Assembly: GCA_003552465.1 (NCBI GenBank)
Contig: PULQ01000058.1
Coordinates: forward strand, 1-34,264
Length of the DNA: 34,264 nt
Direction: 5' to 3'
Source: Dehalococcoidia bacterium
Lineage (GTDB): Bacteria; Chloroflexota; Dehalococcoidia; GIF9; AB-539-J10
Shown here: in pieces, positions 15,463 to 27,814 of the stretch
Position numbering within the stretch: the stretch's first letter is position 1
Layout: the number at the start of each line of letters is the position of its first letter
Notes under the pieces: generated by a model
What the model saw: only the letters and a program-made list of their open reading frames with translations
Database searches by the model: none
What the model was told of the DNA's origin: nothing
Position numbers and translations under genes: made by a program

Positions 15463-15479
15463 AATCCACTTCAAGACAC

Positions 15480-15507
15480 ACACAGGCCGGGGATGCCCGG
15501 CCTGTGT
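15480..15507 (-). terminator. 12-bp GC-rich hairpin after the zinc-ribbon gene
   Basis: ACACAGGCCGGG and CCCGGCCTGTGT pair perfectly over 12 bp with a 4-nt loop. It starts 22 nt after the zinc-ribbon stop and ends 17 nt before the small ORF at 15462. There is no long U-run after it on the minus strand (GTGTCTTG), so it could be a terminator or a transcript-stabilising hairpin. Confidence 0.55.
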
Positions 15508-15529
15508 ATGCCCTGTGGTCAGACCGGCA

Positions 15530-15835
15530 TTATCTACTCGCTCTGACTCTCTTGAAGCAATCGCTACAATAGACCGGCCTACCGTTGGTAGGCTCAAAAG
15601 GGACTTCGGTCTCTTTGCCGCAGTCGGCGCAGACAGCGTGGAACATCTGGCGCGGGAGACCGTATCTGTCCCCACCACTGCTGTTCCGCTCTGTCTTCCG
15701 CGCTTCTCGGCATGAAGGGCAGCGCTTGGGCTCGTTGGTATAGCCCCTTGACTGAAAGAACTCTTGTTCCCCAGCGGTGAAGCTGAAGTCAGTCCCGCAA
15801 TCGACACACTGGATAGCCTTGTTTTGAAAACTCAT
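15530..15835 (-). CDS. Protein with two zinc ribbons
   Basis: This 101-residue protein carries two Cys4 zinc-binding modules. The first (residues about 10-43) has CVDCGTDFSFTAGEQEFF and RCPSC, as in the widespread 'probable zinc-binding' family. The second (about 69-95) has CADCGKE and YCSDCF. The first module is clearly paralogous to the gene at 25775-25990 (IQCVDCG / IQCCVCG, TFTAGE-like, NEPKRCP / NDPGRCP). The ATG at 15835 follows GGAGG at a 7-nt spacing, and both lie inside a predicted hairpin shared with that paralogue. Such proteins may bind RNA or other proteins; the exact role is unknown. Confidence 0.88.
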   Translation of the reverse strand: MSFQNKAIQCVDCGTDFSFTAGEQEFFQSRGYTNEPKRCPSCREARKTERNSSGGDRYGLPRQMFHAVCADCGKETEVPFEPTNGRPVYCSDCFKRVRASR

Positions 15836-15929
15836 TGGATGACCTCCTCTCTTTCATACTTAGCTAGAGCCCGGGTCATCCAATACTTGGCATAATTCTA
15901 ATGAGATTATAAGAAGCTTGTAACAACCT
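15836..15929 (-). promoter_or_regulatory. Conserved 5' leader with a hairpin that would mask the ribosome site (copy 1)
   Basis: These 94 nt align without gaps to 25681-25774 upstream of the second zinc-ribbon gene, with about 68 of 94 positions identical by hand count. ATTGGATGACC (minus strand, 15884-15874) is a perfect 11-bp inverted repeat of GGTCATCCAAT (15844-15834), which overlaps the ribosome site and the AT of the start codon; the loop is 29 nt. Further upstream a smaller hairpin (ATAATCT, loop CATT, AGAATTAT with one bulge) lies at the same position as a hairpin in copy 2. The very 5' part (AGGTTGTTACAAGCTTCTTA) is almost identical in both. The layout suggests cis-acting control of translation. 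Confidence 0.75.
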
Positions 15930-15950
15930 AAACTGAAACTACTAACCTGT

Positions 15951-15979
15951 ATCATACGCCAAACTGAACCGGATAGCAA
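15951..15979 (-). promoter_or_regulatory. Predicted sigma-70-type promoter for the zinc-ribbon leader, copy 1
   Basis: On the minus strand, TTGCTA (15979-15974) and TATGAT (15956-15951) are separated by 17 nt. The -10 ends 21 nt before the conserved leader. The matching promoter of copy 2 sits 20 nt before its leader. The implied 5' UTR is about 108 nt. Confidence 0.65.
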
Positions 15980-16054
15980 ATGCAGCGGGGTATCCCTGCT
16001 GGCAAGAGGACCGCCTCACCTCAAATTCGGTGATCTTCGCCGGCAACCGATGAC

Positions 16055-25631: not shown

Positions 25632-25660
25632 TTGCAGACCGGTCCATTTCAGTGTATGCT
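25632..25660 (+). promoter_or_regulatory. Predicted sigma-70-type promoter for the zinc-ribbon leader, copy 2
   Basis: TTGCAG (25632-25637) and TATGCT (25655-25660) are separated by 17 nt. The -10 ends 20 nt before the conserved leader at 25681, against 21 nt in copy 1. The implied 5' UTR is about 108 nt. Confidence 0.6.
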
Positions 25661-25680
25661 TGATCAACTAGTCTGGTCTC

Positions 25681-25774
25681 AGGTTGTCACAAGCTTCTTA
25701 CAATCTCCACAGATTCGTACCAGGTATTGGATGGCCCGGACTGTGGCTACTATCTGATAAATGGAGGTCATCCT
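25681..25774 (+). promoter_or_regulatory. Conserved 5' leader with a hairpin that would mask the ribosome site (copy 2)
   Basis: This leader aligns gap-free with the one at 15929-15836. ATTGGATGGCC (25726-25736) pairs with GGTCATCCTAT (25766-25776) with one mismatch and one G-U pair, and the loop is again 29 nt. The 3' arm covers the end of the ribosome site (GGAGG at 25763-25767) and the AT of the start codon. A small upstream hairpin, AATCT-CCAC-AGATT, lies at the same position as the hairpin of copy 1 though its sequence differs. The 5' block AGGTTGTCACAAGCTTCTTA is nearly unchanged. Confidence 0.72.
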
Positions 25775-25990
25775 ATGATCCTCGAGGACAAGTCGATACA
25801 GTGTTGCGTATGTGGAACTACCTTTACCTTTACTGCAGGGGAGCGAAGGTTCTATGCGTCCAAAGGCCTGACCAATGACCCCGGGCGTTGCCCTAAGTGT
25901 CGAAAGGAAAGGAAACAACAGAATCGCGGCCTCTCCGGTAGCTGGTCTAGCTACGCCGACAGGGCAAAGCTCAGCAGAGAATTCCAGTAA
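25775..25990 (+). CDS. Single zinc-ribbon protein, paralogue of the gene at 15530-15835
   Basis: This 71-residue protein begins MILEDKSIQCCVCGTTFTFT and has one Cys4 zinc ribbon (CCVCG and RCPKC), then a basic tail. It corresponds to the first module of the two-ribbon protein at 15530-15835; the second module is absent. An in-frame ATG lies at 25727, but the ATG at 25775 has GGAGG with 7-nt spacing and matches the paralogue's start and leader, so it is preferred. The earlier ATG falls inside the conserved leader hairpin. Function unknown; RNA or protein binding is a reasonable guess. Confidence 0.85.
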   Translation: MILEDKSIQCCVCGTTFTFTAGERRFYASKGLTNDPGRCPKCRKERKQQNRGLSGSWSSYADRAKLSREFQ

Positions 25991-26341: not shown

Positions 26342-27814
26342 ATGGCTGGAGGACGAAGCATCAACGTGGATAGCGACGGGATATTGGTTGAAGGCCTGCT
26401 CACCGATCGAGCCGGAGTTGAAGGTGTCAGCGCCCTATTCGAGCGAGTTCAAGAGAAAGAAGAAGTCGACGATTTCCTGCCCGACGAAGCCGACGGGAGC
26501 AAGCCTCAGCCGGTGCCAGGGGACTATGAGGCAATCGACGACTCAACCCGTATGTACCTTCAGGAACTGGGCAGGGTCCCGCTGCTTACAGCTCACGAGG
26601 AAAAGGCGCTATCACGCAAGATAGAACTGGGTAGACACGTAGAAAAGCTTAAGGATAATCACGTCAGACAGTACCACAAGCCCCCCTCTGCAGTTGACAT
26701 TGTCATTGAGGTGATCTCCCCTCTGTCCGATGCATACTCGGTCGTTCAGATTATCGAAGAGCACGTCGGCATTGGTCATTCCGGCAATGTCGTAGAGACG
26801 ATCAGTAATCCCGACTTCCGCTCTGCCATCGATATCGTTATAGCCCCCTCGTTAATAGCTGCAAGCGCCAGCGGGATAGATACAGGCACCACTGAGGCCG
26901 AAGAGTCCCTGGTGGCTCTCTCAGTTAACAGCCAGCTTCTGTCCCCGCGATTGCTGGAGTTCCTGGCTGGACATGGAACTTCATGGTTAGAACTAGGGGC
27001 TCTGCTTGCTAACAAGATGTTCCTATCTCAACTCGATTCTCACAGCAGTGAGTTCAGTGCTTATTTTGAAGAGGTGAGAACCGAAGCGGAAGCGGCAGAA
27101 AAGCACCTCACCGAGGCAAACTTGCGCCTCGTGGTCAGCATAGCTAAGAAGCATATCGCACGTGGTACTCCCTTCCTTGATCTTATCCAGGAGGGGAACA
27201 TCGGCCTCATGCGGGCTATAGATAAGTTTCAGTATAGAAGAGGCTACAAGTTCAGTACCTACGCCACCTGGTGGATCAGGCAGGGCATAAGTCGATCTAT
27301 AGCTGACCAATCGCGCACCATTCGTATTCCGGTACACATGGTGGAAACAATGAACAAGCTATCACGCACAACGCGGCAGTTGGTTCAGGAACTCGGACGC
27401 GAACCGAGCCACGAAGAAATCGGCGGCCGCCTGGATATGTCCCCGGAGAAGGTAGAGGAGTGCATGGCTTTGTTCTCCCATCAGCCGCTGTCGCTAGACA
27501 CCCCCATCGGCGAGGACGCCGATAGACGTCTGGGCGACTTCGTTGAAGATCGCTCGAGTCTTGCACCAACTGAAGCCACTTCACAGCAGCTGCTCAAGGA
27601 ACAGATGGACAGAGTGCTCAGTGAACTCACCGAACGAGAGAAGAAGGTGCTGCAGCTTAGATTCGGACTGAGAGACGGATGTCCTCGAACTCTGGAAGAG
27701 GTGGGCAGAGAGTTCAATGTGACTCGAGAAAGAATACGACAGATCGAAGGCAAGGCTCTGCGCAGGTTACGTCATCCCTCCCGCAGTCGAAAACTCAAGG
27801 GATACCTGGAGTGA
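26342..27814 (+). CDS. rpoD: RNA polymerase sigma factor, RpoD/SigA type
   Basis: This 490-residue protein has region 1.2 ([20 protein letters not shown], about residues 66-85), region 2 ([38 protein letters not shown] and [14 protein letters not shown], about 254-325), region 3 ([14 protein letters not shown] onward) and region 4 with the helix-turn-helix ([20 protein letters not shown], about 453-472). Between regions 1.2 and 2 lies a variable insert of about 150 residues, as in many primary sigma factors, but this one has no obvious family match. The short region 1.1 is acidic. The protein fits a primary-type sigma factor. Its own upstream region has a near-consensus promoter, which agrees with housekeeping control. 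Confidence 0.9.

Follow-up and report, generated by a model that had tools for sequence, protein, structure and literature searches.

The DNA analysed here, a window of 34,264 nucleotides that comprises an entire contig of a 1.8-Mb Dehalococcoidia genome (87% complete), carries two copies of a conserved leader RNA that is predicted to act in cis as a bistable translational switch, likely cold-responsive, for RNA-remodelling proteins. Two-state translational control by the leader, taken alone, appears probable; a cold response, taken alone, is favoured with moderate confidence, and the complete reading is favoured slightly less than either of its parts. As far as the libraries show, the leader is an undescribed cis-regulatory RNA family. 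A preliminary description had proposed just such an RNA, able to hide the ribosome site, and this proposal is borne out by further copies, by conserved arms with some compensation, by an upstream -10 element and by the absence of an Rfam match. Among the roles suggested for it (thermosensor, cold-response element or autoregulatory site), which we infer, the gene context (RRM, DEAD-box, little CspA) and a modest predicted cold opening would favour a cold-response element.

The two leaders were aligned over 94 nt each, at 15836-15929 on the minus strand (copy 1) and at 25681-25774 on the plus strand (copy 2), and are identical at 68 of 94 positions without gaps, as had been claimed. Both follow a well-supported promoter with the TTGC-type -35 element and 17-nt spacer of the preliminary description, TTGCTA-N17-TATGAT in copy 1 (-35 at 15974-15979, -10 at 15951-15956, minus strand) and TTGCAG-N17-TATGCT in copy 2 (25632-25637 and 25655-25660, plus strand), and the distances of 21 or 20 nt from -10 to leader were reproduced. 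Of 97 homologous leaders, 89 have a -10 hexamer 18-23 nt upstream of the GG with which the 5' element is aligned, and 76 have their best -35 at 17-nt spacing. This conserved placement puts the predicted transcription start, about 15943-15944 on the minus strand for copy 1, just before all conserved RNA; transcription from downstream of the hairpin, which had been named as a possible refutation, is thus not predicted, as the -10 is upstream of the whole structure. The resulting leader RNA of copy 1 is approximately 109 nt long and ends at the base before the ATG (15836-15944, minus strand), and that of copy 2 spans 25666-25774 on the plus strand; both are matched by covariance models, copy 1 by the two models R1 and R2 described below. 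Copy 1 precedes a gene for a 101-residue zf_Tbcl and zf_Tbcl_2 protein (15530-15835, minus strand; Pfam PF13451, 9e-19, and PF23477, 2e-20) and copy 2 a gene for a 71-residue zf_Tbcl protein (25775-25990, plus strand; PF13451, 6e-19). No solved structure resembled the zf protein by sequence. Directly 3' of the copy 1 gene, at 15470-15520 on the minus strand, is a terminator-like GC-rich inverted repeat, which suggests a monocistronic copy 1 transcript. Downstream of the copy 2 gene and on the same strand is a gene for a sigma-70 family factor with regions 1.2 to 4 (26342-27814).

High sequence conservation adjoining a promoter could also point to a DNA-level operator, with the inverted repeats serving as transcription factor sites. 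This is the least probable of the readings considered, because the predicted start site precedes the conserved blocks, and because the pairing strands span approximately 110 nt and change via G-U intermediates and some compensating pairs, which is the mark of an RNA.

The leader can adopt two competing folds. The 11-bp inverted repeat with a 29-nt loop that had been claimed was recovered at 15884-15874 / 15844-15834 in copy 1 and at 25726-25736 / 25766-25776 in copy 2, the latter with one G-U pair and one mismatch as described, and it covers the 3' end of the Shine-Dalgarno (SD) sequence, the spacer and the start codon. In state B, the sequestering hairpin GGAUGACC:GGUCAUCC is formed and the ribosome-binding site is hidden. 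The sequestor arm is ATTGGATGACC in copy 1 (15874-15884, minus strand) and ATTGGATGGCC in copy 2 (25726-25736, plus strand). The opposing ribosome-site arm is GGTCATCCAAT in copy 1 (15834-15844, minus strand), where it overlaps the start codon and the 3' end of the SD sequence GGAGGT (15842-15847, minus strand; by eye, complementary to the 16S 3' tail of relatives over an extended stretch), and GGTCATCCTAT in copy 2 (25766-25776, plus strand). In state A, the GGAUGACC arm is instead taken up by a conserved 5' strand in a long 5' hairpin, and the sequestering hairpin is blocked; this fold appears when the RNA preceding the SD arm is folded alone. The preliminary description missed this anti-sequestor half of the element, a conserved 5' strand that is predicted to compete for the sequestering arm. 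For copy 2, the competing 5' hairpin that it overlooked, and not the sequestering hairpin, is the minimum free energy (MFE) fold.

Four helices make up state A, all on the minus strand in copy 1. The outer helix H0 pairs TAGTT (15937-15941) with AGCTA (15861-15865) and shows A-U/G-C exchange at its second pair, and H1 pairs AGTTT (15930-15934) with GGGCT (15868-15872), with 87% of pair cells paired. The anti-sequestor GGTTGTT (15922-15928) has GGATGACC (15874-15881) as its state A partner, as supported by prefix folds and pair counts, and the apical stem P1, GCTT:AAGT with a variable terminal hairpin, occupies 15885-15917. The 3' strands of H1 and H0 (15861-15872), placed by the prefix fold and pair counts, fall within the loop of the sequestering hairpin, which would explain why the loop of state B is conserved. 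In copy 2, the anti-sequestor is GGTTGTC (25682-25688, plus strand), and its pairing in the MFE fold has a probability of at least 0.98 from 4 to 37 °C. Across homologues, the consensus is UAGUU:AACUA or UGGUU:AACCA for H0, AGUUU:GAACU for H1, GGUUAUY:(G)GAUGACC for the anti-sequestor and (A/G)CUU:AAG(U/C), followed by a variable tip, for P1. The smaller upstream hairpin of the preliminary description is indeed kept, with compensation in all four P1 pairs, but it is only the apical part of this much longer hairpin.

Three other structural candidates were discarded. A pseudoknot joining the 5' element to the loop of the hairpin was less well supported than the nested hairpin; a CUCU:AGAG mini-helix in the state B loop had no evolutionary support in the event test; and intrinsic attenuation did not fit a hairpin that, by eye, has no following U-run. 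Natural variants of the arrangement were observed as well. Locus L157 (G256:C27) contains tandem leader-zf_Tbcl units at 321-441 and 601-708, and the second unit retains the sequestering hairpin but lacks the 5' anti-sequestor strand, one half of the switch having been deleted naturally. Seven leaders (L210, L211, L213, L215, L217, L220 and L224) form a subtype in which the sequestor and SD arms, approximately CCATGGATGACC and GGTCATCCATGG, pair through the start codon and a different 5' strand, AGTTTG or GGTTTG, pairs with CAAACT. This subtype may be an alternative way of building the switch.

Evolutionary support for both folds was assessed in 89 distinct leaders. The main helix of state B had 98% of its cells paired, and state A had 89%, compared with 25-52% when the partners were slid by one to three columns. 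At H0 pair 9-107, AU was found in 42, GC in 28 and GU in 13 of the 89 leaders, and P1 showed both-sided changes in four of four pairs. As regards covariation for the stem, which had been named as a check, substitutions preserve pairing more often than expected, but no single pair was significant by APC-corrected mutual information against a phylogeny-preserving null. Pair 9-107 is the top covarying pairable column pair and has an E-value of 5 under the strict form of that null, so that covariation alone is not proof. Because no single pair was significant, an event-based test was used, which asks whether inferred substitutions preserve a pair given the background substitution types, with slid and chance-helix controls. 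Pairing was kept in 52 of 67 substitution events for state B, against an expectation of 29.5 (z 6.0; slid controls up to 3.8), and in 168 of 299 for state A, against 112 (z 7.6; slid controls up to 3.7); the 401 chance 5-bp helices of an earlier alignment scored at most 4.75. Some columns serve in both folds, so that the two scores are not independent evidence; taken alone, the 5' side of the anti-sequestor, unused in state B, reached z 3.8. At the level of whole helices, H0 and P1 stand out, the observed covariation sum being reached in one and two of 80 simulations, respectively. The corresponding numbers were 8 of 80 for P3 and 5 of 80 for state A as a whole, and neither the anti-sequestor alone (50 of 80) nor H1 alone (56 of 80) showed covariation.

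The covariance-model search of Chloroflexota that had been proposed as a check returned further copies. Model R1 matched 109 of 294 Dehalococcoidia genomes, with up to five copies per genome. Model R2, which contains the untranslated part only and therefore cannot be driven by the coding start, matched 31 of 400 Chloroflexota genomes, every one of them Dehalococcoidia; among these 400 genomes no leader was found in other classes. The genome studied here has four copies, with covariance-model E-values down to 1e-19, the match of copy 1 being by construction because that copy was part of the model. Four of its five zf_Tbcl genes carry the leader; the fifth paralogue (L005; G000 contig C156:6901-7038) does not. 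The zf_Tbcl protein itself is encoded in 91 of 98 genomes of the class, and the leader is thus confined to part of it, single-contig, near-complete genomes of one Dehalococcoidia family included. Scanning the proteins of named genomes yielded 80 loci, almost all from Dehalococcoidia/Chloroflexota and almost all leader-bearing. One record titled Deltaproteobacteria (L085, JAUVYB010000003.1) contains a typical Dehalococcoidia leader and zf_Tbcl gene and is probably a misassigned bin or contig. At gathering score, the 4227 models of Rfam release 15 matched only a tRNA in the window, and over 15780-16020 there was no relevant match up to E = 10. Literature searches on zf_Tbcl, on the cold response of Dehalococcoides and on RNA motifs of Dehalococcoidia gave nothing on this leader. 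An RNA of this kind is thus new to Rfam and to the literature searched.

The genes behind the leader were classified for 108 distinct leaders with readable downstream DNA, the counts being minima because flanks were short. In approximately 96 of the 108, the leader stands before an intact zf_Tbcl gene; within 900 nt, an RRM gene was seen in 43 cases and a DEAD-box gene in 13. The element is thus not limited to zinc-ribbon genes, since RNA-helicase and RNA-binding-protein genes also carry it. Six leaders (L114, L117, L120, L123, L137 and L232) are followed by a decayed or truncated zf frame and then by a DEAD-box helicase; in L114 and L123, the zf_Tbcl start codon itself is gone, yet the leader is kept ahead of the helicase gene. 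In L208 and L151, the helicase begins at the start codon of the leader itself, and in L238 and L239 an RRM gene comes after a lost or shortened zf gene. Locus L208 (G012:C3) has divergent back-to-back leaders, at 1501-1617 on the minus and 1740-1844 on the plus strand, for zf_Tbcl and a DEAD-box helicase, and the helicase start codon directly behind its leader is TTG. The leader-linked helicases are DEAD/Helicase_C proteins most like CshA/RhlE, yet score under the cut-offs for those families. The RRM protein of the present genome exceeds the NCBIfam cut-off for 'RNA-binding regulator', and its gene, the only RRM gene found in this genome, sits right behind the C52 leader and its zf_Tbcl gene. 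CSD cold-shock proteins were found in just 17 of 98 genomes of the class; no CSD gene was found in the present, incomplete assembly or among the downstream genes examined (zf_Tbcl, RRM, DEAD-box).

Such a gene set could also belong to a protein-autoregulated leader without temperature sensing, whose translation would be switched by its own product (zf_Tbcl, RRM protein or helicase) on binding to one of the two structures. All three are putative RNA-binding or RNA-remodelling proteins, and the cold-induced helicase crhR offers a precedent of known autoregulation (PMC3485376). Furthermore, there is similarity between the sequestor arm UUGGAUGACC and the 16S 3' end found in relatives, CUGGAUCACC, so that a protein acting on the 16S 3' end could also bind the leader, and a comparison by eye shows the SD arm AGAAAGGAGGUCAUCC to be complementary to that tail at 15 of 16 positions. 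On the other hand, this resemblance may be no more than the consequence of a very strong SD and of the sequence that pairs with it. In-cis binding by the zf protein alone is made unlikely by the sharing of one leader among three different protein types and by leaders that persist before helicases after decay of the zf gene. Autoregulation of this kind is considered rather unlikely. The leaders kept on helicase mRNAs that have lost the original start codon (L123, L114) would also suit an mRNA-stability or processing element, such as an RNase III or RNase E site or a cold-box-like stabiliser, and a long 5' hairpin at the very start of the transcript could stabilise the mRNA. However, a stability element would have no need for a sequestering arm conserved exactly against the SD, the spacer and the start codon, as is the case here, and this explanation is improbable.

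The preferred reading, a switch between states A and B, was followed by predicted folding. Before the SD arm is made, the anti-sequestor helix has a mean probability of 0.93-0.94, which falls to 0.02-0.03 when the 5' element is shuffled. Nascent RNA is predicted to be dominated by state A, and most full-length RNAs at 37 °C by state B. The 5' strand lowers the cost of exposing the region from the SD to +13 by 5.2 kcal/mol at 37 °C (88 of 90 leaders) and by 6.8 kcal/mol at 10 °C (86 of 90). The SD hexamer was not predicted to be more unpaired in state A than in state B; we infer that the gain in accessibility would concern the SD 3' end, the spacer and the start codon. At equilibrium, the predicted cold shift is small, state A averaging 0.33 in full-length RNA at 10 °C compared with 0.23 at 37 °C; cooling from 37 to 10 °C raises state A by more than 0.1 in 22 of 90 leaders and does the reverse in 3 of 90. 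Some copies are predicted to be entirely in one state, and those of the window lie at opposite ends, copy 1 being all-B at every temperature and copy 2 all-A. A strong equilibrium thermosensor is thus unsupported for most copies, and because the cold bias is only modest, a kinetic handover is proposed.

The computations show that the leader, both of its folds, the placement of its promoter and its association with these genes are conserved; a translational effect, with temperature as its signal and feedback by the products, is proposed for the handover and would run as follows. During transcription, the 5' half would fold as one long hairpin (H0, H1, anti-sequestor and P1) and so take hold of the GGAUGACC arm. 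When synthesis reaches the SD arm GGUCAUCC, the captured arm could pass to the sequestering hairpin, and state B, in which the start codon, the spacer and the SD's 3' part are paired, would repress translation. In the cold, or where refolding is slow or RNA chaperones and helicases run short, state A would persist and the very strong SD would be used, yielding more zf_Tbcl protein, RRM protein or DEAD-box helicase. These proteins, or warmth, would restore refolding, and state B would then end translation. The leader points to a likely role for the uncharacterised zf_Tbcl proteins beside RRM proteins and DEAD-box helicases. It also suggests a cold-response route for bacteria largely without CspA, with one switch RNA ahead of several RNA-remodelling genes. 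More tentatively, it may represent a new class of bistable cold-responsive leader that coordinates an RNA-remodelling regulon in mostly CspA-less bacteria and whose products speed the open-to-closed handover, a possibility that we would not yet favour.

Several known systems share features with this leader. As in the expression platforms of translational riboswitches, an SD arm and a 5' anti-sequestor were computed to compete for one sequestor arm, and since the product is expected by family to bind zinc, a small molecule or an ion such as zinc could be the ligand that stabilises the 5' hairpin. Yet state A is a nearly continuous long hairpin without a conserved multi-way, aptamer-like junction, in which the anti-sequestor hairpin is the whole 5' half, and the two pairings account for nearly all conserved bases. 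Moreover, the genes belong to RNA metabolism and not to transport or biosynthesis, none being ligand-linked, and even at E = 10 Rfam had no relevant match; a riboswitch is considered highly improbable. Heat-type RNA thermometers such as ROSE and FourU likewise occlude the start site with a hairpin, whereas here the sequestering hairpin is predicted to be stable at 55 °C and above, the bias is to cold opening and neither family is matched in Rfam. Cyanobacterial rbpA1 and crhR, which encode an RRM protein and a DEAD-box helicase, are cold-induced (PMC6789579); no report of a common leader for rbpA and crhR was found, whereas here one leader family serves RRM, helicase and zf_Tbcl genes. Members of the cspA family of Escherichia coli share a long, cold-box-containing 5' UTR (PMC6719143), and cspA mRNA made in the cold takes a fold in which the SD is exposed (PMC9947658). 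Both systems have a long conserved leader (approximately 110 nt here versus 145-160 nt) ahead of several small nucleic-acid-binding paralogues. The two folds computed here may, like those of cspA, differ in exposure of the ribosome site, and RNA transcribed in the cold would then be expected to adopt the open one (PMC9947658, PMC6719143). They differ in that no sequence or Rfam relationship was found, in the two-hairpin handover with one shared arm, and in the genes served, which here are zf_Tbcl, RRM and DEAD-box genes of Dehalococcoidia only and not a CSD-domain gene. Of the systems compared, a cspA-like cold-responsive translational switch would, by analogy, fit the leader best.
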